From NCBI GenBank assembly GCA_003166865.1, contig PMUP01000013.1:84383-148382 (forward strand): a stretch of DNA of 64,000 bases, in the 5' to 3' direction. This stretch comes from Bryobacterales bacterium (lineage in GTDB: Bacteria; Acidobacteriota; Terriglobia; Bryobacterales; Bryobacteraceae). Of the stretch, positions 6,428 to 58,879 are shown piece by piece (within the stretch, counting starts at the first letter, position 1; each line of letters begins with the position of its first letter). The notes beneath the pieces are model-generated. The model saw only the letters and a list, made by a program, of their open reading frames with translations. It made no database searches and was not told the DNA's origin. The position numbers were made by a program, and so were the translations under genes.

Positions 6428-6443
6428 GCGCCGATAGACAGCG

Positions 6444-20874: not shown

Positions 20875-20889
20875 CAAGGTCTGAGGAAG

Positions 20890-20904
20890 GCAATTCCCCT
20901 GCCA
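20890..20904 (-). promoter_or_regulatory. Sigma-54 (-24/-12) promoter of flgB
   Basis: Read on the minus strand the site is TGGCAGGGGAATTGC. The -24 GG and -12 GC pairs have the required spacing, and only the sixth base differs from TGGCAC-N5-TTGC. The predicted +1 is about 20878, 4 nt before the flgB ATG. Confidence 0.8.
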
Positions 20905-20960
20905 TTCGGAACTGCCTGTAAATCAAGAGTAAGCAATGACGCTGAAGCCAAGATTTTGGA

Positions 20961-23290: not shown

Positions 23291-24118
23291 ATGGGTAGTG
23301 CAGTATCTTTGACGTCCGCGATGCAGGCGAACCTGTTTTCCCTGGACACGATCAATTCACAGATCCAAACCGCGCAGACCGACTTGTCCACCGGCAAGGC
23401 GGTCAACTCGGCTGCAGACAATGCCACTGCGTTTTTCGAGGCGCAAGCAGGCACTACTGAGGCCAGTCAGCTCAACAACCTGAAGGACGCCATGGGGCAA
23501 GGTCTGCAGGTTGTGAATACAGCGCTCACGACTATCTCCACCGCCACCAGCATTCTGCAACAGATGCAGTCCTTGGCGCAGCAGGCGGAATCCACCACCA
23601 ACACGACGCAAATCGGTAACCTGCAGACGCAGTACAATCAGCTGCAGGGCCAGTTGAACGAACTCACGCAGAACGATGCCAACTACCAGGGCACCAACCT
23701 GCTGAGCGGCGTCGCCGGCAACAACCTGGTCATCAACTTCAACGCCGACGGAACCAGCAATATCACCATCTCGGCAACGGATACGACACAGACCACCTAT
23801 CAGCCCGCGGCGGCCACCAATTGGGCTAGCGGCAGCACCGCCATTCAGGCATCGGAGACAGCGGCGTCCAGCGCCGTAACCGCCTACAACGGTCTGTCAC
23901 AGACGCTCGGTTCATACAGCGCTCTCATCACCACCCGTCAGAATTTCACTACGCAGCTTGCCAACATCTTTACTACGGGCGCGAACAACTTAACCAACGC
24001 GGACATGAACCAGGAGAGCGCGGACCTGTTGGCCTTACAGACCCAGCAGCAGCTCAGCATCAGCGCTCTCAACATTGCCAACCAGTCGAACCAGTCGATT
24101 CTGCGGCTCTTTCAATAA
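23291..24118 (+). CDS. fliC: Flagellin
   Basis: The 275-residue filament protein has both conserved ends: SAMQANLFSLDTINSQIQTA with DLSTGKAVNSAADNATAFF at the N-terminus, and ESADLLALQTQQQLSISALN with IANQSNQSILRLF at the C-terminus. The pattern resembles the short flagellins of Caulobacter and other Alphaproteobacteria, matching the presence of flaF and flbT here. The central domain is short and rich in Thr, Ser, Asn and Ala, leaving many possible O-glycosylation sites. AAAGGAG at 23277-23283 precedes the ATG. FlgL was considered and judged less likely from the C-terminus. Confidence 0.94.
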   Translation: MGSAVSLTSAMQANLFSLDTINSQIQTAQTDLSTGKAVNSAADNATAFFEAQAGTTEASQLNNLKDAMGQGLQVVNTALTTISTATSILQQMQSLAQQAESTTNTTQIGNLQTQYNQLQGQLNELTQNDANYQGTNLLSGVAGNNLVINFNADGTSNITISATDTTQTTYQPAAATNWASGSTAIQASETAASSAVTAYNGLSQTLGSYSALITTRQNFTTQLANIFTTGANNLTNADMNQESADLLALQTQQQLSISALNIANQSNQSILRLFQ

Positions 24119-35452: not shown

Positions 35453-37519
35453 TTGAGAGGAATCGATTCGTTGGGCAGATTGCGAAACACCTTCCAGTTC
35501 CTGAACGTCGCCGAGCTTGGCGTGCCGGTGGCGGTCCTCATGATCCTGGTCGCGTTGATTGTTCCGGTGCCAGGCTGGCTGCTGGATCTCCTGATCGTGA
35601 CCGACATCATGACGTCGCTGGTGGTGATGATGGTCTCCGTCTACATCACCCGGCCCGTGGATTTCAGCGTTTTCCCGACCACGCTCCTCCTTCTGACGTT
35701 GCTTCGCTTGTCCCTCAACATCTCCGCCACGCGGCTGATCCTTTCGAACGGCAATACCGGAACCGGCGCGGCCGGCACCATCATCGAAGCCTTCGGAAAC
35801 TTCGTGGTGGGCGGCAGCTTTGTGATCGGCGTCATTATTTTCCTCACCCTGATTGCGATTCAGTACGTCGTCATCAACCATGGCGCGGTGCGCATTTCGG
35901 AAGTCACGGCCCGGTTCACTCTCGATTCGCTGCCCGGGAAACAGATGTCCATCGATTCGGACCTGAGCTCCGGCATCATCAATGAAAAAGAGGCACGGGA
36001 GCGGCGCAAGATGCTCTCTTCGGAGTCCGATTTTTATGGCGCCATGGACGGCGCGACGCGCTTCACCCAGCGCGACGCCATCGCCAGTATTCTGATCACC
36101 GGCATCAACATCGCCGGCGGATTTCTGATCGGCGTCTTCCAGCACGGAATGCCACTGGTGAAAGCGCTGGAGACCTATACCGTACTCACCATCGGCGACG
36201 GCCTGGTTACCGTGATCCCCGCTCTGATGGTTTCGATCTCCGGCGGACTGATCGTCACGCGAGCCAGCTCCGAGGAACGCCTCAGCGCCCACTTCGTCCG
36301 TCAATTCTTTAGCAACGGAATGCCTCTGATGCTGGCGGCCGGGATGATCCTGACTCTCGCCATTATTCCCGGCTTGCCGAAAATCCCCTTCCTGCTGGTC
36401 GGCGGTGTTGCCGGGACCATTGGATGGCGGATCGAGGAGCGCAAGAAGCGCAACGCCGATGCCCCCAAGCCCGCGACCGCGACGGAAGTCAAAGAGAATC
36501 TGGAGGGACTCCTCAAAGTGGATCCGCTCGCCGTCGCGCTCGGCGTCGGGCTGGTAAAGATGATCCAGGCCGGACCCGACGCGCCGATTCTAAAACGCCT
36601 CACTGGCATTCGCAAGCAACTTGTGCTGGGCTTGGGATTCTTCCTTCCGCCCGTACGCTTCATCGACGACGTGAAGCTTCGTCACCGGGAATACGCGATT
36701 TTGATCAGGGGTAATGAGGTGGCCCGCTATGAAATGGCCGCCGGCTGCGACCTGGCGGTGCCGAACGAAGAGAATGTGCCGAAAATCGCCGGCGCTCCGA
36801 CGCGGGAGCCCAGCTTCGGCATGCCGGCCGTCTGGACCCCTTCGGCCAATTCGATGCAAGCGCGCAATTCCGGCTATACCGTGGTGGACCAAGTGAGCGT
36901 GATGGGCACGCATCTGATGGAAGTGGTCCGCGCCCATGCTCATGAGCTGTTCGGCCTGCAGGAAATGAAGAAGCTGCTCGATCTGGTGGCCGCCGAAAAT
37001 CCCAAGGTGGTGGAAGAAGTGGTTCCCAAGCTGTTGTCGCTCGCCGTGCTGCATCGCGTGTTTCAGAATCTACTGAGGGAGCGCATTTCGATCCGCGATG
37101 CGGTGACCATTCTCGAGGCCGCCGGCGAAGCCTCGCTCACCACCAAGAACGTGGTACTGATTACCGAATACGCGCGGCAGGCCATTCGCCGCTCCATCGT
37201 CCAGCCGTTCCTCGATCGCGAGGAGAAGCTGCGCGCCTACGTGCTCGATACAGCGCTGGATGAAGCCGTGGTCAGCTCCGTGCAGCACGGCGAGATTACG
37301 AGTCATCTGTCGCTCGCGCCCAGTCTGGTTCGCGAGTTCATCAAGAAAATTGAGGAGAAGGTCGGCAATCCCGCCGCACCCGTGGCGATTCTGGTGTCAG
37401 CGGGCGCGCGCTATTTCCTGCAGCAACTGGCGGAGACCGCGCTCAAGAACGTTTTCTTCCTGTCGCACAGCGATGTTCCGCCGACCACGCAGGTGGTCAG
37501 CGTGGGGTTGATACGGTAG
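35453..37519 (+). CDS. flhA: Flagellar export gate protein FlhA
   Basis: The 688-residue protein has eight N-terminal membrane helices, the FHIPEP signature region (TTLLLLTLLRLSLNISATRLIL, AVRISEVTARFTLDSLPGKQ, GIINEKEARERRKML, FYGAMDGATRFTQRDAIASI), and a C-terminal cytoplasmic domain that docks export substrates. Both candidate starts are TTG: 35453, or 35471, which has GAGAGG at 35455-35460 at a better distance; the second gives 682 residues (LGRLRNTFQFLN). It leads flhA-flhF-fliA-fliN2. Confidence 0.96.
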   Translation: MRGIDSLGRLRNTFQFLNVAELGVPVAVLMILVALIVPVPGWLLDLLIVTDIMTSLVVMMVSVYITRPVDFSVFPTTLLLLTLLRLSLNISATRLILSNGNTGTGAAGTIIEAFGNFVVGGSFVIGVIIFLTLIAIQYVVINHGAVRISEVTARFTLDSLPGKQMSIDSDLSSGIINEKEARERRKMLSSESDFYGAMDGATRFTQRDAIASILITGINIAGGFLIGVFQHGMPLVKALETYTVLTIGDGLVTVIPALMVSISGGLIVTRASSEERLSAHFVRQFFSNGMPLMLAAGMILTLAIIPGLPKIPFLLVGGVAGTIGWRIEERKKRNADAPKPATATEVKENLEGLLKVDPLAVALGVGLVKMIQAGPDAPILKRLTGIRKQLVLGLGFFLPPVRFIDDVKLRHREYAILIRGNEVARYEMAAGCDLAVPNEENVPKIAGAPTREPSFGMPAVWTPSANSMQARNSGYTVVDQVSVMGTHLMEVVRAHAHELFGLQEMKKLLDLVAAENPKVVEEVVPKLLSLAVLHRVFQNLLRERISIRDAVTILEAAGEASLTTKNVVLITEYARQAIRRSIVQPFLDREEKLRAYVLDTALDEAVVSSVQHGEITSHLSLAPSLVREFIKKIEEKVGNPAAPVAILVSAGARYFLQQLAETALKNVFFLSHSDVPPTTQVVSVGLIR

Positions 37520-44570: not shown

Positions 44571-47492
44571 TCAGACGCCGGATCCGGCTGCCCGTCCCAT
44601 TAACATACGCCGCATGGCGGCATAAATCCGATCGACAGCCGGCCGCCGGTAGGCCCACTTCTGATCCGGCTCCGGCGGATTGACCAGCATGGTGGCATTG
44701 GCCTCGAAGAGCAGAATCTCGCGGCTGGCGCTCAGTCCGAAGTCGATGCCAGCGTAGTCCAGCCCAAGCCGGGATTGAATCTCGGCCAGTGCCGTCATGG
44801 CGCGCGGACCTAGCACGGCCGGCATGTTCTCGATGAACTCCTCGTCTTCGGCGCGGTGCTCGGGACTCTCTGCCATTTCCGCGGTGAAATAGTGGATCTT
44901 CCAATGGCTGGAGATGGCGACGTGCAGCGGGTACAGTTCACCATCAATCATCATGACGCGGTACTTGCGCGCCTTGCCGTCCGGCCCGCGCGCGTCCAGG
45001 TAACGGAGAACCGTCAGATCCTCGCCGGGCAGCTCGGCCAGTGCCGCGGGCAATTGCGCGATCGCCTCGATCCGAAGGAAGTGACGCCCGGTGTGGAAGC
45101 CGGGAGTCCGGATCAGAAGCGGGAAGTCGAAACCGTGGCGGGCCAGCGTCGTGGCGGCGTCCGGCGAGGCCAGCAGCGCGCGCGGCAGCGTGACCGTCCG
45201 TGGCGTGATGACCCCCGGGATTCCGGAGAGGCGCTGCGCGTTGTCGCTGCGTCCAGTTGCGGCCACCGCAGCGGGCGCGTTGAGCACTGGCGTTGTCGTC
45301 AGGGCCAGCACGGACTCGGCTGCGGCCAGCGCCGGACCCGCCAGATCGGCGTCCCCGATGGCATTGAAGACCAACTGGTGCGGCGGCAGCGGAGTAGCGG
45401 GGTTATAGAACTCCACGAAAACCAGCGAGGTCTGGAAAACCCCATCGTCGAGAAAATGGCGCATGGGAATGTTGCCATCCATCGAACCCGCCAACAGCAG
45501 TACCGACACCGGCGGCCGCTCCCCGCGATACGGCAAAGCTACCACCGGCCGGCTCTCGAACTCCATTTGCCGATGCCGGGCAGCGCCTGACGGATCGCCG
45601 GATTCATCAAGGACACAGGCCAGGCCCTGGTGCGCTCCGGCGAGATCCGGGTGTAAGCGCAGAGCCGTTTCGTAATGTTCGCGCGCCTCCGTCAAGCCGC
45701 CGCTCTCACGCAGCGCATTTGCGAGATTGATGTGGCTGACCGGGTCGCCCGGGTGCCTGGCCACGGCTTCGGCGTAGGCAGTGCGCGACGCCGTGCGGTA
45801 TCCCGTTTCATACAGCAAGGTACCGAGGTTGTTCAACGCCGCCCGATGCGATGGTTCCCGCGAAAGCACCTCGAGATAAGCGTCTCTGGCATCGGCGGTG
45901 CGGCCAACTTCGGCCAGCAGGCAGGCGCGCTCAAATCGCAACGGAATCGCGGCGGCTCCAGATGCGATTTGCGCCTCCAGTTCCCGTAGCCGGAATTCTC
46001 TCCGCCTCCGCGGCTGCCAATCCTCCGCTTCCCCGCGCCGGGCCTGACGGCTGCTCAGCGCGCTGCATCCGATCGCGCGACCCGCAGCAACAGTCTTTTC
46101 AATCAGCGTATCGATCTCAGCTTGGCTCGTCCGGTGATTCACGATGGCGGCGCGAATCGCCAACCGGCCGTCGATAACCGTGGTCGACGGAGCGACGTCT
46201 CCGGCTTCATGAAGATCGGCGACGATGCGGGCATTGACAGCATGGGTATCATCGCCGGCGCGATAACGGAAACACACGATGTTCAGTTGCACCGGCGCCG
46301 CAAGTTCCAGTTCCCTCGTTTCCATGACGCGCGTCTCCAGATAGCGCGCCAGCTCACAGGTGCGCGAGATCACCGCGCCCAACGCATCGGCGCCGTACAC
46401 CTGGAGCGTGAACCACGCCTTCAGTGCGCGGAATCCGCGGGAGAGATCGGGTCCAAAGTCGCATGGCCAGGTTGAGCCGCCCGCCAGTCCCCGTTCCTCG
46501 CGGCGTAGGTAAGCGGCAGAGGTAGCGAAGGCTTGACGGTGCAGCAGGCCGTCGCGCACCAGGATGAAACCCGCATCATAGGGGACCTGGCCCCATTTGT
46601 GAAAGTCGAATGCAAGCGAATCCGCGCGCTGGATTCCGTTCAAACGGGGAGCGAGATCCGGCGCCAGCACGGCCAGGGCTCCGCAGGCTCCATCGACATG
46701 GAACCACAAATGCTCGCGGCGTGAAAGATCGGCCAGCGCGCTGAGATCGTCAATGGCCCCGGTATCCACGGTTCCGGCCGTGCCCACCAGCAGGAACGGC
46801 GTGAACCCCGCGCGGCGATCCGCTTGGATGGTCTTTTCCAATTCCGCTAGATCCATCCCCCGGCCAGGCCGGGCGGGAATCCGACGGAGCGCGTCGCTGC
46901 CGATGCCGCAATAGTCCATCGCCCGTGCGATGCAGGTGTGAGCGGCCACCGAGGCGTAGGCGGCCAGCCTCCGGGAACTCGCGGCGACACCCGCCGAGCG
47001 CACGTCGAAACCCAAAGCCACATCGCGCGCGATCAGCACGCCGATGAGATTCGCCATCGAAGCTCCCGTCACAAACAAGCCGGTGGCGCTCTCGGGAAAG
47101 CCGAAAATCGTCCGCATCCAAAGAACAATCTGGCACTCCACTTCGATCGGGATGTGATCGCGGCCACCGAGATTCGCGTTGAGACTGGCGGCCAGCATCT
47201 CGGCCAGGATCCCGACGGGAGTTCCACCGCCGTGCACCCATCCCATGAAACCGGGATGTGTATTGCCGGTGGCGTACGGCAGGATGTCTTTCAGGAATCT
47301 GCCGTGCACCTCGGCGAGATCGGAGGGAGTGCGGGGGACGGGATCGCGAAAGTGGTCCCGTGCCTCACTGGGGATTGGTTGCCAGACGGGACGCTCGCGG
47401 ATGTGCTCCACGTAGCCGAGAGCATCGTCCAGCATCCGGTGAGCTTGAATTCGGAAGGCGGGCCAGTCGGATGGGTCGAGATCGGTCGCCAT
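44571..47492 (-). CDS. Fusion of a PLP-dependent group II decarboxylase, TPR repeats and an ATP-grasp-like domain
   Basis: One unbroken 973-residue frame holds three parts. Residues 1-475 match aromatic-L-amino-acid/glutamate-type decarboxylases: His185 (ring-stacking position), Asp267 in HVDGAC, and Lys299 in DFHKW as the PLP lysine. Residues 515-645 are TPRs (RAALNNLGTLLYETG, VSHINLANALRESGG). Residues 660-973 resemble ATP-grasp ligases: LLIRTPGFHTG, KYRVMMIDGELYPLHVA, and the likely metal ligands Asp917 (AGIDFG), Glu930 and Asn932 (FEANATM). The product may turn an amino acid into an amine and ligate it to a peptide or acid. It starts 1 nt after motB/motD. It shares no overlap with the small convergent gene at 44548. 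Confidence 0.88.
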   Translation of the reverse strand: MATDLDPSDWPAFRIQAHRMLDDALGYVEHIRERPVWQPIPSEARDHFRDPVPRTPSDLAEVHGRFLKDILPYATGNTHPGFMGWVHGGGTPVGILAEMLAASLNANLGGRDHIPIEVECQIVLWMRTIFGFPESATGLFVTGASMANLIGVLIARDVALGFDVRSAGVAASSRRLAAYASVAAHTCIARAMDYCGIGSDALRRIPARPGRGMDLAELEKTIQADRRAGFTPFLLVGTAGTVDTGAIDDLSALADLSRREHLWFHVDGACGALAVLAPDLAPRLNGIQRADSLAFDFHKWGQVPYDAGFILVRDGLLHRQAFATSAAYLRREERGLAGGSTWPCDFGPDLSRGFRALKAWFTLQVYGADALGAVISRTCELARYLETRVMETRELELAAPVQLNIVCFRYRAGDDTHAVNARIVADLHEAGDVAPSTTVIDGRLAIRAAIVNHRTSQAEIDTLIEKTVAAGRAIGCSALSSRQARRGEAEDWQPRRRREFRLRELEAQIASGAAAIPLRFERACLLAEVGRTADARDAYLEVLSREPSHRAALNNLGTLLYETGYRTASRTAYAEAVARHPGDPVSHINLANALRESGGLTEAREHYETALRLHPDLAGAHQGLACVLDESGDPSGAARHRQMEFESRPVVALPYRGERPPVSVLLLAGSMDGNIPMRHFLDDGVFQTSLVFVEFYNPATPLPPHQLVFNAIGDADLAGPALAAAESVLALTTTPVLNAPAAVAATGRSDNAQRLSGIPGVITPRTVTLPRALLASPDAATTLARHGFDFPLLIRTPGFHTGRHFLRIEAIAQLPAALAELPGEDLTVLRYLDARGPDGKARKYRVMMIDGELYPLHVAISSHWKIHYFTAEMAESPEHRAEDEEFIENMPAVLGPRAMTALAEIQSRLGLDYAGIDFGLSASREILLFEANATMLVNPPEPDQKWAYRRPAVDRIYAAMRRMLMGRAAGSGV

Positions 47493-47493
47493 A

Positions 47494-48264
47494 CTAATTC
47501 GCGCGCGAATTGGGCAATGAAATCATACCCTCTTTATTGAGGATGACGATATCCACCCGCCGGTTCTTCGCGCGCCCTTGCAATGTGTCGTTGGTTTCCA
47601 AAGGAAAGGAGTCAGCGTAGCCCACCACGGACATCCGGCTGCTGTCGATCGAGAACTGAGTACTCAGCGCCTCCAGCATCGCGATGCTGCGTGCCGCCGA
47701 AAGCTCCCAATTGCTGTGGAATCGCGAATTATGGATGGGAACGGAATCGGTATGCCCTTCCAGGCGGATCGGATTGGCAATGTTTTCAAGCGTCGCCGCG
47801 ATCTTGCGCAGAACCGGAATGCCGGCCGGAGACACCTGGTCGTCACCGGAGACAAAGTAGGCTGCTTCCTGCAGGCTCACCACCAAGCCGCGTGCTTCTG
47901 TGTGAATGTTTATGCGACCCGCGCGGATGTCTTCCGCCAGGCTGGCCTTCAGCAATTCGCCGGTGGGGGAAAGGTCGGCTGGCGCGTGCTTAGCCGTCTC
48001 GGCCTTGGCTCCGCCTGGACCGCGCATCATACTGTTACCCTGACCTAGGTTATCGACGGTTCCACCCAGCACTTGCGACACTTTCGGCGGGCCGTCAAAG
48101 GCGCGGCGTACCGATTCGGCCGCCTTCATGACCTTGTGGCGATCCGCCTGGGAGCTGGCGTAGAGAACAACGAAGAAAGCGAACAATAGCGTGATGAAAT
48201 CAGCGTAGGACACCAGCCAGCGCTCGTGCGTGTGGGGTTCGCGCTCTCCACGGGAACGCCTCAT
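47494..48264 (-). CDS. motD: Flagellar stator protein MotB, MotD-like
   Basis: The 256-residue stator subunit has the cytoplasmic N-terminus, one membrane helix with the ion-binding Asp22 (ERWLVSYADFITLLFAFF, very like Pseudomonas MotD), and an OmpA-like peptidoglycan-binding domain (IRLEGHTDSVPI, WELSAARSIAMLEAL, NRRVDIVI). It anchors the stator to the wall. It overlaps the upstream motA-like gene (ATGA) and is followed 1 nt later by the fusion gene. A second MotB is at 58079. Confidence 0.95.
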   Translation of the reverse strand: MRRSRGEREPHTHERWLVSYADFITLLFAFFVVLYASSQADRHKVMKAAESVRRAFDGPPKVSQVLGGTVDNLGQGNSMMRGPGGAKAETAKHAPADLSPTGELLKASLAEDIRAGRINIHTEARGLVVSLQEAAYFVSGDDQVSPAGIPVLRKIAATLENIANPIRLEGHTDSVPIHNSRFHSNWELSAARSIAMLEALSTQFSIDSSRMSVVGYADSFPLETNDTLQGRAKNRRVDIVILNKEGMISLPNSRAN

Positions 48265-49118
48265 ACCTCAATGCGGGCCCTGACGGGGACATTGTTTTGG
48301 ATCGACGCCGGCTTCGCATCCGGATCGCCTGCCAGGCTCTCCAACTTCCTGCGGATCATCTTCGGATTCATGCCTTCCACGATGCCCGCCACGCCTTCGA
48401 GGATCAACTCAGTCATTTCGATGCGCCGTTTCGCGCGCCCCCGGATTTTACTCGCGGCCGGAAGGAACAGAAGATTCGCCGCGCCAACGCCGTAGATCGT
48501 CGCCACAAACGCCACGGCGATTCCGCGGCCAACTTCATCGATATTCGCCAGGTTCTTCATTACCTGGATCAGACCCAGTACCGCGCCGATGATGCCAATG
48601 GTGGGCGAATAGCCTCCTGCGCTTTCAAAAACCTTGGCCCGGCTGAGAAGGCGCCGCTCTTCCATTTCCTGGTCGAGTTGCATGGTGTGCTTCAATTCGG
48701 TCAGTTCCGCGACGTCGATGGCGAGATTGATCGCCTTGCGCAGGAATGGATCCTCGATCCGGTCCGCGTCTGATTCCAGGGACACGATGCCGTTGCGCCG
48801 CGCCTTGGTTGCAAATACGATGAGCTGCTCCAACATCGCCTGCGAGGAAACGCGGGGTTCGAAGAATACGTACCTCAACTCGCGTACCGCGGCGATCACG
48901 TCGGCAAAAGGGGTGCCAACCAGCACCGCGCCCACGGTGCCGCCCAGCACGATCAGAGCGGCCGTTCCCTGCGCGATGTCCGCGAGCGAGCCTTTTTCGA
49001 GCAACAAGCCGCCGACCAGGCCGCCGGCCGCGATGAGCAACCCTAAGACGGTTCCTTTATCGATGGCGAGGCCCGGACCCCCGTCCTTGTTTGTAGCGGC
49101 GAGGTTCGAATCACTCAT
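48261..49118 (-). CDS. motC: Flagellar stator protein MotA, MotC/MotP-like
   Basis: The 285-residue membrane protein has four helices and the MotA signatures ARRNGIVSLES, GGYSPTIGIIGAVLGLIQVM and ANLLFLPAASKIRGRAKRR, including the two functional prolines. Frame extension to 49211 is rejected; the ATG at 49118 overlaps the flbD stop by 8 nt and suits the family start. It works with the MotD-like protein encoded next. Confidence 0.94.
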   Translation of the reverse strand: MSDSNLAATNKDGGPGLAIDKGTVLGLLIAAGGLVGGLLLEKGSLADIAQGTAALIVLGGTVGAVLVGTPFADVIAAVRELRYVFFEPRVSSQAMLEQLIVFATKARRNGIVSLESDADRIEDPFLRKAINLAIDVAELTELKHTMQLDQEMEERRLLSRAKVFESAGGYSPTIGIIGAVLGLIQVMKNLANIDEVGRGIAVAFVATIYGVGAANLLFLPAASKIRGRAKRRIEMTELILEGVAGIVEGMNPKMIRRKLESLAGDPDAKPASIQNNVPVRARIEV

Positions 49119-49326
49119 TTTCGTTGGTGTTGCCTTCGGGAATGCCAGCGGAGATGCGCCGGCGGAACTCGACAATGCGCGAGAGAATTTCGTCCGCGCT
49201 CTCCCGGACAAACAGCCTTTGACCGGTGGTCAGCGCGATGGTGGTGTCGGGCACAGTCTCAATCTGCTCGATTAAGTCTGAGTTCAGCAGGATCGAATGA
49301 TTGTTGATACGCGTGACCCGGATCAT
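49111..49326 (-). CDS. flbD: Small flagellar protein of the FlbD/SwrD family
   Basis: The 71-residue protein matches the FlbD family (IRVTRINNHSILLNSDLIEQ, PDTTIALTTGQRLFVRES). Members are found beside motA in many flagellates, and the Bacillus member SwrD raises motor power. It lies between the sigma-54 activator (6-nt gap) and motA (8-nt overlap). This is distinct from the Caulobacter response regulator also named FlbD. Confidence 0.92.
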   Translation of the reverse strand: MIRVTRINNHSILLNSDLIEQIETVPDTTIALTTGQRLFVRESADEILSRIVEFRRRISAGIPEGNTNENE

Positions 49327-49332
49327 AGCCGA

Positions 49333-50754
49333 TCAGACGGCGGAGAATGCCGATTCCTTATCTACCTCAGCGCCGGTCAGCTCTTCGCCCAACTCGACTT
49401 GCAGCGCGTCAAGCTTGGCATAAAAGGTGGTGCGCTTCAGTTGCAGCAGAGTCGCGGCGCGCTTCTTGCTTCCGCCCGCGAGGCGCAAGGCTTCCGATAA
49501 AAGAGTCTTTTCGAACTGGCCCACGATGAGGTTGTAGTCGATGCCCTCGGTTGGCATGGCGAACATCCGCGGATGATTCGGAGACCCGCCCAGCGCGGTG
49601 AAGTCGGCCATCCGCAGGGTGCCGCGGCTGCCGCTGAGCGCGATCGCGCTTTCGATCGTGTTTTCGAGCTGACGGACATTTCCGGGCCACGGGAATTTTG
49701 TCAGCCAAGCCATGATCTCGGCCGGGATGGCCTTCATCGGGATTTGCTCATTGCGGCAGATTTTTTCGATGAAATGGGGCACCAGATCCGAAATGTCTTC
49801 TAGACGCTCGCGCAGCGTGGGCAGATGAATGGGCGCGACGTTCAAACGGTAATACAAGTCCTGCCGGAACTTGCCTTGCTCCACAAGTTTCGCCAGGTTG
49901 GCGTTGGTGGCAGCAATCACACGGACGTCCACGCGCATCGTTTCCGAAGATCCCAGGCGATGAAATTCGCGCTCCTGCAGCACGCGCAGGAGCTTGGCCT
50001 GTAGCGCGAAGGGCATATCGCCGATCTCGTCCAGGAACAGAGTGCCGCGATTGCCCTGTTCGAAGCGGCCCAGGCGGCTCTGAAAAGCACCGGTATAGGC
50101 TCCGCGCACATGGCCGAACAGTTCGGCCTCGAGCAATTCACCCGGGATGGCATCGCAGTTAATAGACACCATCGGTTGGCCAGCGCGAGGGCTGGCATCG
50201 TGGATGGCTCGGGCGACCACTTCCTTACCGGTTCCCGTTTCGCCCGTGATCAGCACCGTTGCGCGACGCGGGCTCACCAGCCGAACCAGTTCTTTCACCA
50301 CACGCATGGAACAGCTTCCACCAACCAAGCTGCGGCTCCACAGCTCTGCTCCATCGCCGGATTCCGCATCGCCCCATTTCTTCGATCCCTGGCGGCGAAG
50401 CTTCGCCATGGCGAGGGCGCTGGCGCGCTCCTCAAGCGAGGCCTGATCCGTGATGAATTCGTCCGCGCCGAGATAACACAGGCTAAAGGCCCCCGACGGG
50501 GACGTTTCCGGTACCCAGGCGATCAGGGGGGTGGCGCCGAGAGATATCCGCTGGATGCCCGCCAGCACTTCCGCATTTCCCATCTCCAGATGCGGTAGCC
50601 TTGCGACGATTACATCGGGCGCGTCCGCCGTACCAATCACGGCCGACAAGTCAGAAACTCGATGAATGATGTCTACGGCCCTTACACCTGGCGTTGAACT
50701 CCAGAAATCGGCAGATGCGGGGACGCCAGCGTCAGTACATACTGAAACTCTCAT
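49333..50754 (-). CDS. Sigma-54-dependent flagellar activator with a receiver lacking the phosphate-accepting Asp
   Basis: The 473-residue protein has an N-terminal receiver-like fold (1-115), an AAA+ domain (Walker A GETGTGKE, sigma-54 contact loop GAYTGA, Walker B GTLFLDEIGD, PWPGNVRQLENTI) and a C-terminal Fis-type HTH (GGSKKRAATLLQLKRTTFYAKL). In the receiver, VIVARLPHLEMG replaces the usual LLDxxMP, so no phosphorylatable Asp is visible, as in FleQ. It is the obvious activator for the six sigma-54 promoters of this locus. The GAYTGA variant is known to work. Confidence 0.93.
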   Translation of the reverse strand: MRVSVCTDAGVPASADFWSSTPGVRAVDIIHRVSDLSAVIGTADAPDVIVARLPHLEMGNAEVLAGIQRISLGATPLIAWVPETSPSGAFSLCYLGADEFITDQASLEERASALAMAKLRRQGSKKWGDAESGDGAELWSRSLVGGSCSMRVVKELVRLVSPRRATVLITGETGTGKEVVARAIHDASPRAGQPMVSINCDAIPGELLEAELFGHVRGAYTGAFQSRLGRFEQGNRGTLFLDEIGDMPFALQAKLLRVLQEREFHRLGSSETMRVDVRVIAATNANLAKLVEQGKFRQDLYYRLNVAPIHLPTLRERLEDISDLVPHFIEKICRNEQIPMKAIPAEIMAWLTKFPWPGNVRQLENTIESAIALSGSRGTLRMADFTALGGSPNHPRMFAMPTEGIDYNLIVGQFEKTLLSEALRLAGGSKKRAATLLQLKRTTFYAKLDALQVELGEELTGAEVDKESAFSAV

Positions 50755-50841: not shown

Positions 50842-51288
50842 TTAGCCCGAGATGTCGAGGAATCCTGTCGAGGAAATCGCCGCTTCTTCCTGGGCTGGAT
50901 GGGACGGCACGGTTGCAACCTGCAAGGCCTCCCCGATCCGCTCATTGACGCGGGCGATCGACAGCAGGTCCTCCACGGTTCCTCCGCCTGCAAACAAAGT
51001 GAAAATCCGCTTATCGATAAACTTGCTGAGACGGAGCAAGTTCAGGCGCAATGTTTCCGGCAGGGGGTTCGCGGGATTACTGAGCTCCACCTGCAGGAAC
51101 GACCATAGCCGTTGGTTATACTGGAGCGTATCCGTGAGGTTGTCGTCAAACTCAGTCGTGTGGTTCTCCTCCCACTTGCGCGCGCAATGGCGTAATTTCT
51201 GCGCCCCGCGAAAGAGCACCGAGGCCTCCAGTTCGCGCCCTTCCAGTGTTTCCCGTTGCATCTCTTCGTAAATTTTAGTTTGTTGCAT
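50842..51288 (-). CDS. flaF: Flagellin biosynthesis regulator FlaF
   Basis: The 148-residue protein matches FlaF (MQQTKIYEEMQRETLEGREL, LQYNQRLWSFLQVELSNPANPLP, LRLNLLRLSKFIDKRI). In Caulobacter FlaF is needed for flagellin translation and secretion and works with FlbT. The ATG at 51288 is chosen because GGAAGG at 51295-51300 is placed before it; a TTG two codons upstream is the other option. It follows the TPR-glycosyltransferase by 12 nt. Confidence 0.9.
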   Translation of the reverse strand: MQQTKIYEEMQRETLEGRELEASVLFRGAQKLRHCARKWEENHTTEFDDNLTDTLQYNQRLWSFLQVELSNPANPLPETLRLNLLRLSKFIDKRIFTLFAGGGTVEDLLSIARVNERIGEALQVATVPSHPAQEEAAISSTGFLDISG

Positions 51289-51300
51289 TTTCAACCTTCC

Positions 51301-52872
51301 TTAGGTCTGTCGAGTTTTGACTTCCTGCCGAAGATCCGACACCACCCGATCGGCTACGGGTCTCCAATTCCGCACGCTCTTCTGACGGAACAATCGCATG
51401 GACGGATACCACGGCGTATCTTCGCGATCCTGTAGCCACCGCCAATCGTTACAAGCCGGGAGCAGCGTCCAGACCGGCCTTCCCAGCGCGCCCGCCAGAT
51501 GAGTCACGGACGTATCCACGGTGATCAGCAAATCGAGCTCCGCAAGACACGCGGCCGTTGCGGCGTAGTCGGAAAGCCCTGGGCCCAGGTCGAAGATCGC
51601 TCTCGAACGCAGCCACTGGTCTTCCGCCGGCGTCGGGCCAAGCTGCAGACTGAAGAACTGCGCGCCATCGATGTCGACCAGATCTTGAAGCAGCTCCAGA
51701 GGCACCGAACGATTGCGGTCGTTATGATGCTTCGGATTGCCCCTCCACACCAGTCCTACGCGAAACTTGGAGCATGACGCCAGATCCAGGGGGACTGTCG
51801 AACCCGGCAGCGGCCGCAGATACGCAGGCTCTCCTGGAATCGAATCGACGAGTGTTCCGAACAATCGGGGCAGACTCATCAACGGGGCGTGGACGTCGAA
51901 CTCCGGCGCCGGCACGGGCCCTGAGAAGACCTGTGCGAGCTCCGGCATGCCTTCGAGAAGCGTCCGTAACGATTCCTGGCAGTGCACCAAAACCTTGGCT
52001 CCCTGGTGATGCAGCAGCCGGGCATAGCGAATGAACTGGATGGTATCTCCGGCTCCTTGCTCGGCGTGCAGCAGAATCGTTTTTCCTGCGATGCTCGATC
52101 CATCCCATTCAGGCTGCGGCAGCTTCCGTACGCCTGCACCGGGCTTTTTCCAGCGCCACTCGTATTCCTTCCAGCCTTGCTCGAAATCCCCCTGGAGCAG
52201 CGAAATCAAAGCGCGATTGGTGTGGGCTTCGGCATAATTGGGATCAATCGAGATGGCCTTGGAGTAACAACGCGCCGCTTCGCCGATGCGGGAAAGCTCC
52301 ACGCACAGATTGCCCAGGTTGTTCCACGCCGCCGCGTTATCCGGCCGGATGGCCAGCGCTTTGCGAAGCAGGGCTTCGGCCTCCCGCAGCTCGCCGCCGG
52401 CGCGCAGCAGAAGCGCCAGGTTACTCAGCGCTTCCGGAAACCGCGGCTGGTGCGAGATCGCCTTGCGAAGGTGACGGATCGCGTCCTCTGCCAGGCCCAT
52501 GTCGGCCAGTACGCCTGCGAGCAGGAAGCGGCTACCCGAATCGCGGGAGTCCGCATCACATAACGATTGCAGCACATCCCGCGCGGATTCCAATCGTCCC
52601 TCCGCACGCAACGCGGCTGCCAGCCGGTGACTGATCTCCTGATTCCCCGGTGCAACCGTCAGCGCCTGGCGGCAGACGATGGAGGCTGGCTGAAACAGCT
52701 TCAGCTCGAGGAGCGCGTCGGCCAGTGATAGATACGCCGGTTGGTTGCGGGGATCGATCTTCAGGCCCGCGACCCACTGCTGAGCGGCCTCGGCCAGACG
52801 GCCCTCGGCCTGCAGCGCTTTCGCCGAAGCGAAATGCCGCTCGACGCTCTGCTCGAATTCGGTTACTGGCAT
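51301..52872 (-). CDS. TPR-glycosyltransferase, FlmG-like candidate for flagellin glycosylation
   Basis: The 523-residue protein has about six TPRs at residues 10-245 (NQPAYLSLADALLELKLFQ, AAAWNNLGNLCVELSRIGEA, YAEAHTNRALISLLQGDFEQ) and a GT9/GT41-like domain from about 265 (LLHAEQGAGDTIQFIRYARLL, VGLVWRGNPKHHND, DLLITVDTSVTHLAGALGRPVW). Caulobacter FlmG has the same layout and glycosylates flagellin, with TPRs binding the filament protein. Its place between the HAD gene and flaF supports that role. It starts inside the HAD gene end (10-nt overlap). Confidence 0.88.
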   Translation of the reverse strand: MPVTEFEQSVERHFASAKALQAEGRLAEAAQQWVAGLKIDPRNQPAYLSLADALLELKLFQPASIVCRQALTVAPGNQEISHRLAAALRAEGRLESARDVLQSLCDADSRDSGSRFLLAGVLADMGLAEDAIRHLRKAISHQPRFPEALSNLALLLRAGGELREAEALLRKALAIRPDNAAAWNNLGNLCVELSRIGEAARCYSKAISIDPNYAEAHTNRALISLLQGDFEQGWKEYEWRWKKPGAGVRKLPQPEWDGSSIAGKTILLHAEQGAGDTIQFIRYARLLHHQGAKVLVHCQESLRTLLEGMPELAQVFSGPVPAPEFDVHAPLMSLPRLFGTLVDSIPGEPAYLRPLPGSTVPLDLASCSKFRVGLVWRGNPKHHNDRNRSVPLELLQDLVDIDGAQFFSLQLGPTPAEDQWLRSRAIFDLGPGLSDYAATAACLAELDLLITVDTSVTHLAGALGRPVWTLLPACNDWRWLQDREDTPWYPSMRLFRQKSVRNWRPVADRVVSDLRQEVKTRQT

Positions 52873-55331
52873 ACCGCTTCTTGCTCGATAGCCACGGGGA
52901 CATTTCGAAGCTCATCTCGGAGCTCACCTCGAGGCAGTCCCGCGCCGGCCACTTGAGTGAACAGGATGTCGATCTGCACGATGCCCGTGAAATTGCGAAT
53001 CTCATCAACCCGGGCTATCACGCCCGGGGTCTCCGTCACCAGGAAACAGCCAGGGAGTCCGGGGATCGCTTTTACGCCGAAGCTCGAAAGCTCCGCCGGG
53101 GATTTCCGGATCACGCGTACCGGCTCGCCAGGCTCAATCAGGCGAATAAGGATGGCTCCGATGGAGATGAAATCGCCCGGTGCGCCGAAGGAGAAGCCCA
53201 CCTCGAGAAGATTCGCGTCGCGGAACTGCATGGCGAACCGAGTCCAGCCCGTGCGGCGGCTCGAAAGCAAGTAGCTCTGGTCCGCGCGATGCGCCGCGCC
53301 GTCGTTCCAGAAGAAAATCATGCGCCTCGGATCTTCAGGACACTGGAACGCTTCGGGCCGCGCCTTTCTGAGGAAGATGCTGCGCACCGCCTCGCCAATG
53401 ACTGGATTTATCTGGTGCGCCAAACCGAAGATCCAATACACGCTGGAGCTTTCGAGGCTGGCCAACTGATGCGCGGACGCATATTCGAGGTATTCAGGCT
53501 CAATGTCGGCGGCGATGAGCGCGCGGGTTCTAGCGGAACCCATGTTTTCATCGTGCACCCAGGATCCGAAGGCCGCCAGCTCCGCCTTCACCGGCTCAGT
53601 CAGCGAGCGGACCAGAATCGCTTCCAGAAACGGGCGCAGAACCAGGGACCCGATGGCCGCGATGGAAGGTGCGGCCGCGAAGCGCCGGACAAAATCGAGC
53701 ATACCCTGCTGCACGCGTGCGATCTCCGCCCGCTGCCGCATCGGCAAATGTTGTTCGCCTAGCACGGGATCGCCCTGCGCGTCGTATCCGGTGGTGCTGC
53801 CAACATCGCACATCATGCATTGTTCCACCAGTTCGGGTGAGCGCATGAAGGAATGCGCGATTCGCAAAGGCTGCCCGTTCTCCGCCAGGAATCCCTCCGC
53901 GTGGGCGCCCGCGCGCTGGATCTTGCGCACGCCGCTGCCGGTAACAAGGTACAACCCATGGGTCTTAACCGGCACTTTCTCGTGATCGAGAATTTTCTGC
54001 AGGCAATGCTGAATCGTGCCCGAATAACCCAAATCAACCACCCCGATGCGTCCTGGTTGCGCTGGCACCGTCTTTCGGAAGTACGCGATCAACCGGCGTC
54101 GAGCCTCGGCCGAGGCTGCCACTGCGCGAGCCTTCAGCAGCGGATCTCCCGCAATCTTCTGCGCGAGCTTTCCGGCTGTTTCCGCGGAAATCAGCGCGTC
54201 GCCGTCGAGGCCCAGGGCTGACCAATCGATTCCCAGGGGCTCGCACAGATCCCGAGCGCGCGCAGGTTGCGGACGTGCCAGATAGCTTTGCAATTCCGCC
54301 GCATCGCCCCGGAAAATGCAGGCGCGAATCATGGCGTAACGGGAGGCGAAAAACTCAACCGTGTCGATCCCAGTACCGAACTCATCGAGCACGCGCTTCA
54401 AAATCCGGCCCTCGCGCATCAGGCAGAGTAGCGTGGGGATACCTTCCGCCAGCGAGCGCTCGATCACCCATTTTCCAAAACCCGCTATCACCGGACCGAG
54501 AAACAGAGCTCCCCAGGACCGCTGCGGATCCGTCCAGTTTTCAGAAGTGTCCACCGCCTGCGCCCGTACCGCGCTCAAACCCGCATCTCCGGTCCCGGGG
54601 AAATATGCCGCACGCTCCGATGGGGGCGCGGAGAGCTCCAGATCCAGGGCGCGCCGAAAATCCTCGGGCACGCGTGGACGCCACACCGCGGCCATCCCCA
54701 ATTCGCGCGCCGATTCAAAGTCCGCGTGCCGGTTGTCGCCAATATGCAGGATCTGGCCAGCCTTCCATCCGGTCCGCCGCATGAGCTCAGCATGCAACCC
54801 CCGCGCTTTTGGTTTCCGGTAGTGGCAGGAGTTGACGATCACGTGCGGCGTCCGCGGCAGAATCGCGCGCAGATGAACCTCTTCAAAATAGGTATCGGAG
54901 ACGAAGGCCGTCTGAATGCCCTTGGAAGCGGCATAGTCGATCAACTCAAGAATCTCCGGGTCGTGAAATGTGGATTCGCGCTCCAATTCGAGCTCGGCGC
55001 GGATTAGATCGGCCGCGGCATTTCCATCGCGCAATAACCCCGGCGGAAACGCGTGGTAAATCTCCTCGAGCGTCACTTCCCGATCGGAGTTTCGCCGTAA
55101 GCGGGCGGATTGCTCAGCCTCCATGCGCTCGATGGCAAAGCTTGCCGCTGACGTGGAAGGGTACAGCACGCCGCGTTCGATCAGCCTGGCTCCCAACGCG
55201 AAGAAGAGGTCCGTGGGAGCAGGGTACGTGCGCCAGACTGTTGTGTCGAAGATGTCAAGCGAGAGCAGCCGGATTTTGCCTGAATCGATGTGGCGTCGGG
55301 CGTCCTCTAGCGGTGCGTGCGGCTGATTCAT
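52863..55331 (-). CDS. Large HAD-superfamily protein, probably glycan-related
   Basis: The 822-residue protein has a HAD phosphatase-like domain at residues 15-235: DIFDTTVWR (the nucleophile Asp pair), VSDTYF, and the late acidic motif HIGDNRHAD. The rest is unassigned; a second conserved-looking block begins near WGALFLGPVIAGFGKWVIE, and FFASRYAMIRACI and VVDLGYSGTIQHCL are likely core strands. Such long HAD proteins often sit beside glycosyltransferases. The ATG at 55331 follows GGGGAC; an in-frame ATG at 55346 is possible. The following TPR-glycosyltransferase overlaps it by 10 nt. Confidence 0.83.
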   Translation of the reverse strand: MNQPHAPLEDARRHIDSGKIRLLSLDIFDTTVWRTYPAPTDLFFALGARLIERGVLYPSTSAASFAIERMEAEQSARLRRNSDREVTLEEIYHAFPPGLLRDGNAAADLIRAELELERESTFHDPEILELIDYAASKGIQTAFVSDTYFEEVHLRAILPRTPHVIVNSCHYRKPKARGLHAELMRRTGWKAGQILHIGDNRHADFESARELGMAAVWRPRVPEDFRRALDLELSAPPSERAAYFPGTGDAGLSAVRAQAVDTSENWTDPQRSWGALFLGPVIAGFGKWVIERSLAEGIPTLLCLMREGRILKRVLDEFGTGIDTVEFFASRYAMIRACIFRGDAAELQSYLARPQPARARDLCEPLGIDWSALGLDGDALISAETAGKLAQKIAGDPLLKARAVAASAEARRRLIAYFRKTVPAQPGRIGVVDLGYSGTIQHCLQKILDHEKVPVKTHGLYLVTGSGVRKIQRAGAHAEGFLAENGQPLRIAHSFMRSPELVEQCMMCDVGSTTGYDAQGDPVLGEQHLPMRQRAEIARVQQGMLDFVRRFAAAPSIAAIGSLVLRPFLEAILVRSLTEPVKAELAAFGSWVHDENMGSARTRALIAADIEPEYLEYASAHQLASLESSSVYWIFGLAHQINPVIGEAVRSIFLRKARPEAFQCPEDPRRMIFFWNDGAAHRADQSYLLSSRRTGWTRFAMQFRDANLLEVGFSFGAPGDFISIGAILIRLIEPGEPVRVIRKSPAELSSFGVKAIPGLPGCFLVTETPGVIARVDEIRNFTGIVQIDILFTQVAGAGLPRGELRDELRNVPVAIEQEAVCQ

Positions 55332-55443
55332 TCGGTCCCCACGCATTACGGCAATTCGTTTGCCATTTCGTTCCCGCTGGAATCGCAAGAGATCGAGCGG
55401 TAGTCAGACCGGTTTCCTGACTTCGGAGTGCGTTCCATGACGA

Positions 55444-55839
55444 CTAGGTGGCAGTCGTGATGGATTCCAGGAGGTTTTTCTCGTACCGCAGCAGGCGCTT
55501 CATCTTTTGCAGCGCTTTGTAATACTCTCCCGCGATGACCAGGCGGCTGACCTCCTGAAGCAGCGGGGCCATGCTCGATGCGGCGGCTAGCACTTCGCGC
55601 GTGAGGGCCAGGTACAGTTTCATGGTCTCTTCCCGCTGTTCCGGCTGGATGTATAGGAGCTCGATGGCCATATAGATACGGCTGCAGGGAGTCTCCGATT
55701 CCGGCAGGATGTCCGGACACCGAAGAATAGGGGTGTGAGTTTCGATCATCAATTGGGTGGAATACGCACCGTTGTTGCGGACCACTGCTCCGCCGAGGAT
55801 GATCCGCTCTTGTGGTTTGAGTGTAAGAACGAGTCCCAT
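55444..55839 (-). CDS. flbT: Flagellin translation regulator FlbT
   Basis: The 131-residue protein matches FlbT: LTLKPQERIILGGAVVRNN, PCSRIYMAIELLYIQPEQRE and AGEYYKALQKMKRLLRYE. In Caulobacter FlbT binds flagellin mRNA and holds translation until the hook is built. It lies 38 nt after a small unknown gene and 112 nt before the HAD gene. The pairing with FlaF in the same operon strengthens the assignment. Confidence 0.92.
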   Translation of the reverse strand: MGLVLTLKPQERIILGGAVVRNNGAYSTQLMIETHTPILRCPDILPESETPCSRIYMAIELLYIQPEQREETMKLYLALTREVLAAASSMAPLLQEVSRLVIAGEYYKALQKMKRLLRYEKNLLESITTAT

Positions 55840-55877: not shown

Positions 55878-56114
55878 TTAGCGGCCGCGCGCGAAATACA
55901 GCCGTTCCAGTTCGTGGACTTCATCCCGGCGGCGCCGCCTTTCCTGCTCCAGGCGATACCACACCCGACCCAGCAGAAAGAGCGTCGCGTGTTCCGCTTC
56001 ACCCTTCATTTGATTTAGCGTGATAATCTGCATCAGCTCCAGCTCGCTGTTGGACAGCAGATGCAGGGACGCGTCGGACTCTATCGGTTGGCGTCCGTCC
56101 TTTACTTTCGTCAT
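55878..56114 (-). CDS. Small charged unknown protein heading the flbT operon
   Basis: The product is 78 residues from the ATG at 56114, which has GGAGAG at 56125-56130 before it, or 88 from the ATG at 56144. It is helical and highly charged (LLSNSELELMQIITLNQMKG, YRLEQERRRRRDEVHELERL), and soluble. I cannot assign it. Its place before flbT suggests a flagellar accessory or chaperone role. Confidence 0.65.
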   Translation of the reverse strand: MTKVKDGRQPIESDASLHLLSNSELELMQIITLNQMKGEAEHATLFLLGRVWYRLEQERRRRRDEVHELERLYFARGR

Positions 56115-56307: not shown

Positions 56308-57183
56308 ATGTTAAACGCACACCTTGCCGACCGCGCCACCAAAGGCCAGGAATCCTACTGGGCTCTCAAAGGTTTACCTCCGTTTCCCGCCGTAGTGACA
56401 CGTCTACTGGGGTTACTTGCTACCGATAACTACCAGATGCACCAGCTCGTGGACCTGATCCGCGCCGATCCGATGTTTGCCTCCGAGCTGTTGCTCGCCA
56501 CCAATTCAGCCAAGTACGGCTCGCGGAAGGAGGTCACCGGCATCCGCCATGCGGTCGCGCTGCTGGGAATGGAAACGCTGCGATCCTTTGCTGTCGCCGT
56601 ATCTCTGCGCATGTACGTCGGGCGCGTCGCACGTCAGGACCAGCTCGGGAAAATCTGGCGTCATTCGCTGGCCACGGCGGTGATTTGCGACCTGCTTGCC
56701 GAATGCAACCCTGAGATCACCAAGAATTCGCGCGACGACACGGCTTACGTCGCCGGGCTGCTGCATGATATCGGAAGCCTGGGGCTGATGGTCGCGCATC
56801 CAAAGGAATACGCCGAGGCGCTGGGCAATGCCATTCAGGAATCCAAGGATCTTCGCGAAATAGAACAGAATATGTTCCAACTGGATCACTGCGCGGCGGG
56901 GCATCGGATCGCGTGCGCCTGGAAATTTTCACCCGCGATTGCCGAGGTCGCGCTGCGGCATCACCAAGAGCCCTCCGGCGGCGACTTCACATTGCTGGAG
57001 CAGGTCAAAGTGGGAGTCTTGATGGCCGACGCATTAGGTTACGAGGTGGTTCCTCCCCAGCATGTCATGACATTAGCGGAGCTGGCTGAGCTCCTTCCAG
57101 CAGCCGCGCGGGTCCGTTTCAATACACAAATCGACATGCTCCCCGGACGAATCGCGGAGCGCATCCGGTCCTTTGAATTATGA
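56308..57183 (+). CDS. HDOD-domain signalling protein
   Basis: The 291-residue product is an HDOD domain (PPFPAVVTRLLGLLATDNYQ, VALLGMETLRSFAVAVSL, HSLATAVICDLLAE, AYVAGLLHDIGSLGL). HDOD proteins often bind partners in signalling or motility and mostly lack the full HD active site, although an HD pair is kept here. The ATG at 56308 is preferred; a longer frame to 56020 would be antisense to the flbT-operon start. It is followed by motA. Confidence 0.88.
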   Translation: MLNAHLADRATKGQESYWALKGLPPFPAVVTRLLGLLATDNYQMHQLVDLIRADPMFASELLLATNSAKYGSRKEVTGIRHAVALLGMETLRSFAVAVSLRMYVGRVARQDQLGKIWRHSLATAVICDLLAECNPEITKNSRDDTAYVAGLLHDIGSLGLMVAHPKEYAEALGNAIQESKDLREIEQNMFQLDHCAAGHRIACAWKFSPAIAEVALRHHQEPSGGDFTLLEQVKVGVLMADALGYEVVPPQHVMTLAELAELLPAAARVRFNTQIDMLPGRIAERIRSFEL

Positions 57184-57214
57184 GTTTTCGCTACGGAAAG
57201 GGAAGAGCAGAGTC

Positions 57215-58075
57215 ATGTTCGTATTAGTCGGCATCTTGGTAGTCTTCGGATCGATTATCGGCGGCTACCTGATCGAGAAAGGAAATCTGCTGGTGCTGGT
57301 GCAGCCGGCCGAGTTGATTACCATCGGAGGGGCGGCCATCGGCAGCGCGCTCATCGCCAATCCCCCCGCGGTGATGAAGCGCATCCTCGCGGGAGTCCTG
57401 GCTTCGGTAAAGGGATCTCCCTACACCAAGGCTACATTTCTCGACACGCTGAAGATGCTGTATGAATTCTTCAGTCACGTCTCGAAAGTCGGCATGCAAG
57501 TCATCGAAGGTGAGGTGGACGCGCCCGACAAGAGCCCAGTCCTGTCGAAGTATCCCAAGTTCTTGGCGGACCAAAGCGCACTCGCGTTCGTGTGCGATAC
57601 CATCCGCACCTATTCCTCTGGTTCCATGAGCCAGCATCAGCTCGATCATTTGATGGAGATCGATCTCGAATCGGTGGAGCATGAAGATCAAACGCCGGTC
57701 TCGGCGTTGGCCACCATCAGCGATAGCCTGCCGGGATTGGGAATCGTTGCGGCGGTGCTGGGCGTGGTGGTCACCATGGGCTCGCTCGGCGGACCTCCTG
57801 AAGAGGTAGGGCACAAGGTCGCCGCGGCGCTGGTGGGGACTTTTCTCGGGATCTTATTGTGTTACGGCCTGGTGGGGCCGATCTCCTCCAACATGACCAA
57901 GCTGAACGAAGGGCGCGCACAGTATTACCAGTGCATCCGCCAGGGCTTGCTGTCGTTTCTGGACGGCAGCTCGCCCATATTGGCAGTCGAATTCGCGCGC
58001 CGATCGTTGCCAGCCGATCTCCGGCCAACGTTTAAGGATCTCGAAGAGACTTGCCGCAACTCGAAGAAGGCATAA
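57215..58075 (+). CDS. motA: Flagellar stator protein MotA (second copy)
   Basis: The 286-residue protein has four membrane helices (MFVLVGILVVFGSIIGGYLI, GLGIVAAVLGVVVTMGSL, ALVGTFLGILLCYGLVGPI) and the MotA core with DSLPGLGIVAAVLG and the second proline in GLVGPISSNM. The ATG at 57215 follows GGGAAGAG; a TTG at 57173 inside the HDOD end is rejected. It pairs with motB 3 nt downstream. Confidence 0.95.
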   Translation: MFVLVGILVVFGSIIGGYLIEKGNLLVLVQPAELITIGGAAIGSALIANPPAVMKRILAGVLASVKGSPYTKATFLDTLKMLYEFFSHVSKVGMQVIEGEVDAPDKSPVLSKYPKFLADQSALAFVCDTIRTYSSGSMSQHQLDHLMEIDLESVEHEDQTPVSALATISDSLPGLGIVAAVLGVVVTMGSLGGPPEEVGHKVAAALVGTFLGILLCYGLVGPISSNMTKLNEGRAQYYQCIRQGLLSFLDGSSPILAVEFARRSLPADLRPTFKDLEETCRNSKKA

Positions 58076-58078
58076 TCG

Positions 58079-58879
58079 GTGTCCTCCGGGCCGGTCATCA
58101 TCGTCAAGAAAAAAAAGAGCCGCCATGGCGCGCATCACGGCGGCGCCTGGAAAGTGGCCTACGCGGATTTCGTCACTGCCATGATGGCCCTATTCATTGT
58201 CCTGTGGCTGCTCAGCAGCAGTGAGCGCGTGCAGAAGACGGTGGGAGGCTATTTTCGCGATCCCCGAGGAAAAGGCAGAATGGTCGGCACCACTGTTTCG
58301 GGCGCGGGCGAAGCCATGCAGGTCAAGGTCGACGACATGGATAGCCTGAAAAAGAAGATCGAAAAAGCGATGGCGCAGGAGATGAAGGATTTTGACCGGC
58401 TCAAGGATTTCGTCAACATCACCATCACGGAGGAAGGCCTGCGCATTGAGCTGGTGGAGTCCGCCGCCGGGCTTTTTTTCGACAACGGCAGCGCAGTGCC
58501 CTCCCAGGCCGGCGCGGAGATCTTCGCGAAACTCGCCGAAGAAGTCGGTGCGTTGCCGAATCTGGTTGTTATCGAAGGCCACACGGACGCCAAACCATTC
58601 AATGGGAACCGCGAATATTCCAACTGGGAGCTTTCCTCCGATCGCGCCAACGCTGCCCGCCGCCTCATGATGAGCCACGGCTTGCGTCCGGATCAGGTCG
58701 CCCAGGTACGCGGATACGCCGACCAGCATCTTCGCAAGCCTGACGCTCCAGAGGATCCTTCCAATCGCCGCATTTCGATTCTGGTGAAGCGCGCCGAGCC
58801 ATCCCTACCGGCGGACCAGCCTGAAGTCGACCCAAAATCGGCCGCACCGCCCCGGACTCAGGCCACTAACACGCGATGA
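58079..58879 (+). CDS. motB: Flagellar stator protein MotB (second copy)
   Basis: The 266-residue protein has a basic N-terminus, one membrane helix with ion-binding Asp30 (WKVAYADFVTAMMALFIVLW) and an OmpA-like domain (VIEGHTDAKPFN, NWELSSDRANAARRL, NRRISILVKR). The YADFVTAMMALF form is that of classical proton-type MotB, whereas the first copy is MotD-like; the ion is not proven. The start is a GTG. The 3' end overlaps the convergent GGDEF-like gene by 22 nt. Confidence 0.95.
   Translation: MSSGPVIIVKKKKSRHGAHHGGAWKVAYADFVTAMMALFIVLWLLSSSERVQKTVGGYFRDPRGKGRMVGTTVSGAGEAMQVKVDDMDSLKKKIEKAMAQEMKDFDRLKDFVNITITEEGLRIELVESAAGLFFDNGSAVPSQAGAEIFAKLAEEVGALPNLVVIEGHTDAKPFNGNREYSNWELSSDRANAARRLMMSHGLRPDQVAQVRGYADQHLRKPDAPEDPSNRRISILVKRAEPSLPADQPEVDPKSAAPPRTQATNTR

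Follow-up and report, generated by a model that had tools for sequence, protein, structure and literature searches.

FlbT, FlaF and flagellin of a foreign type in an otherwise native flagellar gene cluster of a Bryobacterales bacterium suggest replacement of the filament module

Results

The flagellar gene cluster

The window, a 64,000-nucleotide stretch from a Bryobacterales bacterium (Acidobacteriota), carries a flagellar gene cluster with intact, co-directional flbT and flaF genes and, at some distance, a flagellin gene. The features that matter here are the following:

23291..24118, forward strand: flagellin gene (fliC), 275 aa, Flagellin_C match, between flgM/flgK and flgE
35453..37519, forward strand: flhA, native export gate marker
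47494..49211, reverse strand: motA and motB of native type, neighbours also at the native flagellin locus of relatives
49333..50754, reverse strand: sigma-54 activator gene of native type (PF00158, 234 bits), downstream of flaF
50842..51294, reverse strand: flaF, predicted flagellin secretion chaperone (PF07309)
51301..52872, reverse strand: TPR-GT gene, TPR repeats and a GT9-like C-terminal domain, predicted flagellin glycosyltransferase
52863..55388, reverse strand: HAD-like gene, 841 aa, N-terminal HAD-like domain (weak PF00702)
55444..55839, reverse strand: flbT, predicted post-transcriptional flagellin regulator (PF07378)
55878..56111, reverse strand: 77-aa ORF at the head of the run, based on the open frame and its spacing

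FlbT matches PF07378 with 105.3 bits (cut-off 27, E 2.8e-30, domain positions 1-125 of 125) and FlaF matches PF07309 with 76.9 bits (cut-off 23.6), while both score under the cut-offs of the NCBIfam equivalog models (79.7 bits against 91 for FlaF). On the reverse strand the order is 77-aa ORF, flbT, HAD-like gene, TPR-GT gene and flaF, then the sigma-54 activator and motA/motB; the HAD-like gene overlaps the TPR-GT gene by 10 bp and flaF begins 6 bp past the latter. This spacing fits an operon from the 77-aa ORF to flaF, which may extend into the sigma-54 activator and motAB. Since pattern scans for promoters (sigma-70, sigma-54, sigma-28) and terminators gave no clear excess over shuffled sequences, the limits of the operon are drawn from gene spacing alone. 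The preliminary description had placed FlbT, FlaF and the TPR-GT in one operon, which agrees with the spacing once the HAD-like gene is added as a fourth member between FlbT and the TPR-GT. With these two genes in between, flbT and flaF are split by 4.1 kb, whereas their adjacency is near-universal in the other loci read.

The 77-aa ORF had no match in the family search. The HAD-like protein is probably carbohydrate-related, judging from 21-31% identity to HAD proteins of plasmids, some of them annotated as rhamnan synthesis or glycosyltransferase; it had no relative among the flagellar loci read, and its start codon is uncertain, with an alternative ATG possible at 55331. Among solved structures no relative was found for FlbT, FlaF or the GT domain. 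The gene that immediately follows motB in this run (44571-47492) encodes a 973-aa protein in which a PLP-dependent decarboxylase domain is fused to TPR repeats.

A single flagellin of the FlbT-associated type

The flagellin gene lies 27 kb away from flbT, outside the flbT-flaF operon, and a genome-wide Flagellin_C search found no other flagellin gene in this genome; a second, weak Flagellin_C match on contig C104 was TolC-like on reading and was rejected as a flagellin. Native-type fliC is absent from the genome. The 275-aa protein is 43% identical to flagellins adjoining flbT in Desulfuromonadia, and its closest sequences are of the type found in Desulfuromonadia, Eisenbacteria and Betaproteobacteria, with some from Rhodospirillaceae close behind. 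It had been described as having an alphaproteobacterial-style C-terminus. The C-terminus does resemble the FlbT-associated flagellin type (NCBIfam NF009330, 121 bits, under the curated cut-off of the model), but this type is not confined to Alphaproteobacteria. At 20878-22367, flgK is found without an adjoining flgL, and the contig has no recognisable copy elsewhere; relatives have flgK-flgL.

The native flagellar core

When compared with all fetched loci, in which groups are unevenly sampled, nearly 30 genes of the flagellar core have their closest match in the bacterium's own family; the clear exceptions are FliC, FlbT and FlaF, with the TPR-GT as a tie. FlhA is 53-66% identical to its homologues within the family against 38-42% to those of FlbT-bearing lineages, and the FlhA tree places the window inside the family, beside the relative G495. 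Close to flaF, the sigma-54 activator has its top match in the own family (48%), and motA and motB are 59% and 52% identical to family sequences. The flagellar core is thus native, and FliC, FlbT and FlaF are of a foreign type.

One further observation in this cluster is a second motA/motB pair (57173-58879) with greater similarity to alphaproteobacterial sequences than to the loci read from the family, although the counterpart of this pair in the family may just lie outside the fetched loci. In several family members, among them G525, G453 and G497, FlhA occurs twice, in separate clades, which hints at two flagellar systems. Also encoded inside the cluster (40359-43156) are a 648-aa protein with a methyltransferase domain and a 284-aa protein for which no family match was found, and an FkbH-domain HAD protein (TIGR01686, 211 bits; 62971-63999) adjoins fliG and a lytic transglycosylase gene.

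The native filament module in relatives

Four relatives have fliW-csrA, a TPR-GT and fliC in one neighbourhood. The native locus of G545 reads motA-motB-fliW-csrA-TPRGT-fliC-fliD, that of G495 has fliC-TPRGT with fliD-csrA-fliW opposite, and G461 and G471 show related arrangements. The native flagellin of G495 is a 922-aa protein whose gene (1564-4329 of its locus) adjoins the TPR-GT. In the window, motAB and the TPR-GT are kept as neighbours, with flaF and flbT instead of the native set. Native-type FliC, FliD, FliW, CsrA and FlgL were not recognisable anywhere on the 248-kb contig; for fliW and csrA, which were found in the four relatives, a further 40 kb of contig C104 gave no match either. 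The absence of fliW and csrA is not decisive by itself, since two other relatives (G557 and G525) also have no recognisable copies near the flagellin.

Origin of the TPR-glycosyltransferase

The TPR-GT consists of clear TPRs and a C-terminal Glyco_transf_9-like stretch that scores just over the cut-off (23.2 against 22 bits). Sequence comparison makes it look native, probably a remnant of the native locus: identity is about 40% with the flagellin-adjacent TPR-GTs of its own family against 24.5% with a TPR-GT that adjoins flbT in a Caulobacteraceae genome, a comparator not proven to be FlmG. These values do not support the earlier proposal of an FlmG that arrived with the module; the label FlmG is not justified, and the protein may, by analogy, work in an FlmG-like manner.

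We regard it as possible, though less likely than not, that the TPR-GT, perhaps with the HAD-like gene, belonged to one four- or five-gene module that also brought in flagellin, FlbT and FlaF. Three Desulfuromonadia loci (L256, L257 and L040) carry TPR-GTs beside fliC-flbT-flaF, and the identities of the GT domain are about equal in all directions (up to 49% in the family, up to 48% in Desulfuromonadia and up to 49% in Alphaproteobacteria). Yet in family relatives motAB and native fliC already have a TPR-GT as a neighbour, and a quick tree of the GT domain gathers the Desulfuromonadia domains in a clade of their own that excludes the window (support 95), though without settling where the window belongs. 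Two of these loci contain open frames of about 2,240 aa with several TPR-GT units directly beside fliC-flbT-flaF (L256, 9734-16465; L257, 10715-17476).

Phylogeny of FlbT, FlaF and flagellin

FlbT is 42-48% identical to FlbT of Desulfuromonadia, Eisenbacteria and some Alphaproteobacteria, and FlaF is 46% identical to one Desulfuromonadia FlaF. In the concatenated FlbT, FlaF and FliC tree the window groups with Desulfuromonadia, Eisenbacteria and Betaproteobacteria (99/97), with all 22 sampled alphaproteobacteria outside; this test is conservative, since many of the 22 were picked as most similar to the window FlbT. The FlaF tree returns the same grouping (98/90), and the FlbT tree puts the window next to Eisenbacteria (94/91). 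In the flagellin tree the window falls among FlbT-associated flagellins, its exact position being weakly supported, and the flagellins of its own family form a separate clade (100/100). All three window proteins are long branches. Approximately unbiased (AU) tests did not reject a position just outside the non-alphaproteobacterial clade (concatenated, p 0.40) or a flagellin constrained with the family's own (p 0.085). The placements of FlbT, FlaF and flagellin are compatible with one another, as would be expected for a joint transfer, and so the earlier idea that the module moved with the flagellin gene gains support.

An alphaproteobacterial source, implied in the preliminary description, fits these trees poorly, and we consider direct transfer from an alphaproteobacterium followed by fast evolution unlikely. 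Some alphaproteobacterial FlbT sequences reach 40-45% identity, the NCBIfam flagellin models that were matched are of alphaproteobacterial type, and in the FlbT and concatenated trees rooting at the midpoint places the non-alphaproteobacterial clade within the alphaproteobacteria. This rooting is compatible with older transfers in either direction between Alphaproteobacteria and the other lineages. The grouping of the window with non-alphaproteobacteria in the concatenated and FlaF trees stands against a direct alphaproteobacterial source, even with many alphaproteobacterial rows of the former chosen for likeness to the window FlbT. Most likely, the genes were acquired with the flagellin from the module's non-alphaproteobacterial branch.

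Distribution of FlbT

FlbT was detected in one of 396 sampled genomes of the phylum and one of 200 of the order, in each case the window genome itself, and not in two other members of the same genus; flagella are common in the family, as FlhA is present in 135 of 150 genomes. As sampled, FlbT does not follow vertical descent in the phylum. A collection scan with three query sequences returned, as top-scoring relatives outside the phylum among named genomes, Oryzomonas (45%) and Eisenbacteria (43-47%), then the Olavius Delta 4 symbiont, with further non-alphaproteobacterial matches in Methylobacillus, a Burkholderiales bacterium, Hydrogenophilus and Thiobacillus. In the class of Oryzomonas, Desulfuromonadia, about a third of the genomes (65 of 195) encode FlbT, and in the loci read fliC is beside flbT in 30 of 30, with a recognisable flaF as well in 24 of 30. 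The suspicion that the module is wider than usually described is borne out by these counts: a review gives FlbT for Rhizobiales and Caulobacter only (PMC4347634), and our literature search found no paper discussing FlbT in Acidobacteria, Deltaproteobacteria or Geobacter. On a 22.6-kb Methylorubrum plasmid, two FlbT genes flank a flagellin gene (6133-8405 of the locus), and the stretch read has no further gene annotated as flagellar; this sets a precedent for a flagellin-FlbT pair moving alone.

Still less probable than an alphaproteobacterial donor is ancient inheritance, by which FlbT, FlaF and this flagellin type would have been present in an ancestor of Acidobacteriota and several other phyla, with nearly all acidobacteria losing them and keeping the FliW-CsrA type. 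The presence of the module in several phyla, the long branches of the window sequences and a composition equal to that of the host would suit this scenario, but the absence from every other sampled genome of the phylum and order would require many independent losses, and the family has its own well-supported flagellin clade.

The host genome

The assembly (6.67 Mb in 107 contigs, 96% complete, contamination estimate 1.5%) is that of an acidobacterium. TIGR03436 (acidobact_VWFA) has 34 matches in it, most over the cut-off, while none of 14 control genomes pass; together with the own-family flagellar core, these signature families rule out an alphaproteobacterial genome. The window also has pheS-, pheT- and guaB-like genes, as expected of a core chromosomal contig, and the GC3 of the foreign-type genes equals that of the remaining genes. 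Although the genome is a draft, an assembly or binning artefact joining a foreign piece to an acidobacterial contig is very improbable, and a contaminating segment was ruled out, because the foreign-type genes occur at two separate places within a 248-kb contig, each flanked on either side by native-type flagellar genes.

Discussion

Taken together, we consider it probable that a transferred FliC-FlbT-FlaF unit took the place of the native filament module in a flagellum that is otherwise native. We infer a single swap event and a donor related to today's carriers in Desulfuromonadia, Eisenbacteria and Betaproteobacteria, which would have given flagellin, FlbT and FlaF; the native flagellin would then have been lost from the genome, with the native hook, basal body, export gate and motor kept. 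Against a single event stands the distance between flagellin and flbT, by which a joint transfer is not shown by linkage. The long branches, the non-significant AU tests, the host-like GC3 of the foreign-type genes and the two relatives lacking recognisable fliW and csrA also count against this reading. The loci of the putative donor relatives contain the closest sequences and several have TPR-GTs nearby, but there the three genes are adjacent, whereas in the window they are dispersed in a cluster with a core foreign to them.

Regarding function, the predictions follow the Caulobacter system, where FlbT regulates flagellin mRNA and FlaF is a flagellin secretion chaperone (PMC7591256). The window shares with this system, and with Alphaproteobacteria at large, the same Pfam families over the cut-off and the FlbT-associated flagellin type; it differs in that the closest relatives of its proteins are found outside Alphaproteobacteria, two genes stand between flbT and flaF, the flagellin is far off, and export gate and motor are acidobacterial. 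Caulobacter FlbT binds the 5' leader of flagellin mRNA and controls its translation or stability, and Brucella FlbT has been proposed as an activator rather than a repressor (PMC4347634), so the effect of FlbT in the window may be activation or repression. By analogy, FlbT would act on the flagellin mRNA and match synthesis to export, and FlaF would hand the flagellin to the export gate. FlmG of Caulobacter binds flagellin via its TPRs and glycosylates it (PMC7591256). It has in common with the window TPR-GT an N-terminal TPR part, a C-terminal glycosyltransferase-like domain and a flagellar context, though the latter is nearer to the TPR-GTs of its own family; its TPR domain might likewise bind the flagellin, which would be glycosylated in the cytoplasm. 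Most likely, then, a foreign flagellin, accompanied by the regulator and chaperone that belong to it and decorated by a retained TPR-GT, would be supplied to a native export gate and motor.

Other bacteria rely on FliW-CsrA for an equivalent regulatory task, and its analogy to FlbT-FlaF has been suggested before (PMC4894983; PMC8306008). The proteins of the two systems are unrelated; FliW-CsrA, native in family relatives, lies in four of them at the motAB/TPR-GT/fliC neighbourhood, but was not found on the window contig. Replacement of a FliW-CsrA-type module is likely. A broader reading, to which we give about even chances, is that homeostasis of the FliW-CsrA type, along with flagellin and cap, was exchanged for FliC-FlbT-FlaF from a distant lineage, in which case FlbT-FlaF would be a portable cassette, and it and FliW-CsrA could functionally replace each other in different phyla.

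The module itself is of an already known kind, and the window adds a new occurrence to a survey in which FlbT extends to about a third of one non-alphaproteobacterial class, to Eisenbacteria and to Betaproteobacteria. In this case the flagellin and the proteins that handle it look exchanged, whereas the remainder of the flagellum was kept. It makes two ideas testable: that FlbT-FlaF and FliW-CsrA are interchangeable solutions, and that filament, chaperone and translational regulator may be inherited together as one unit.
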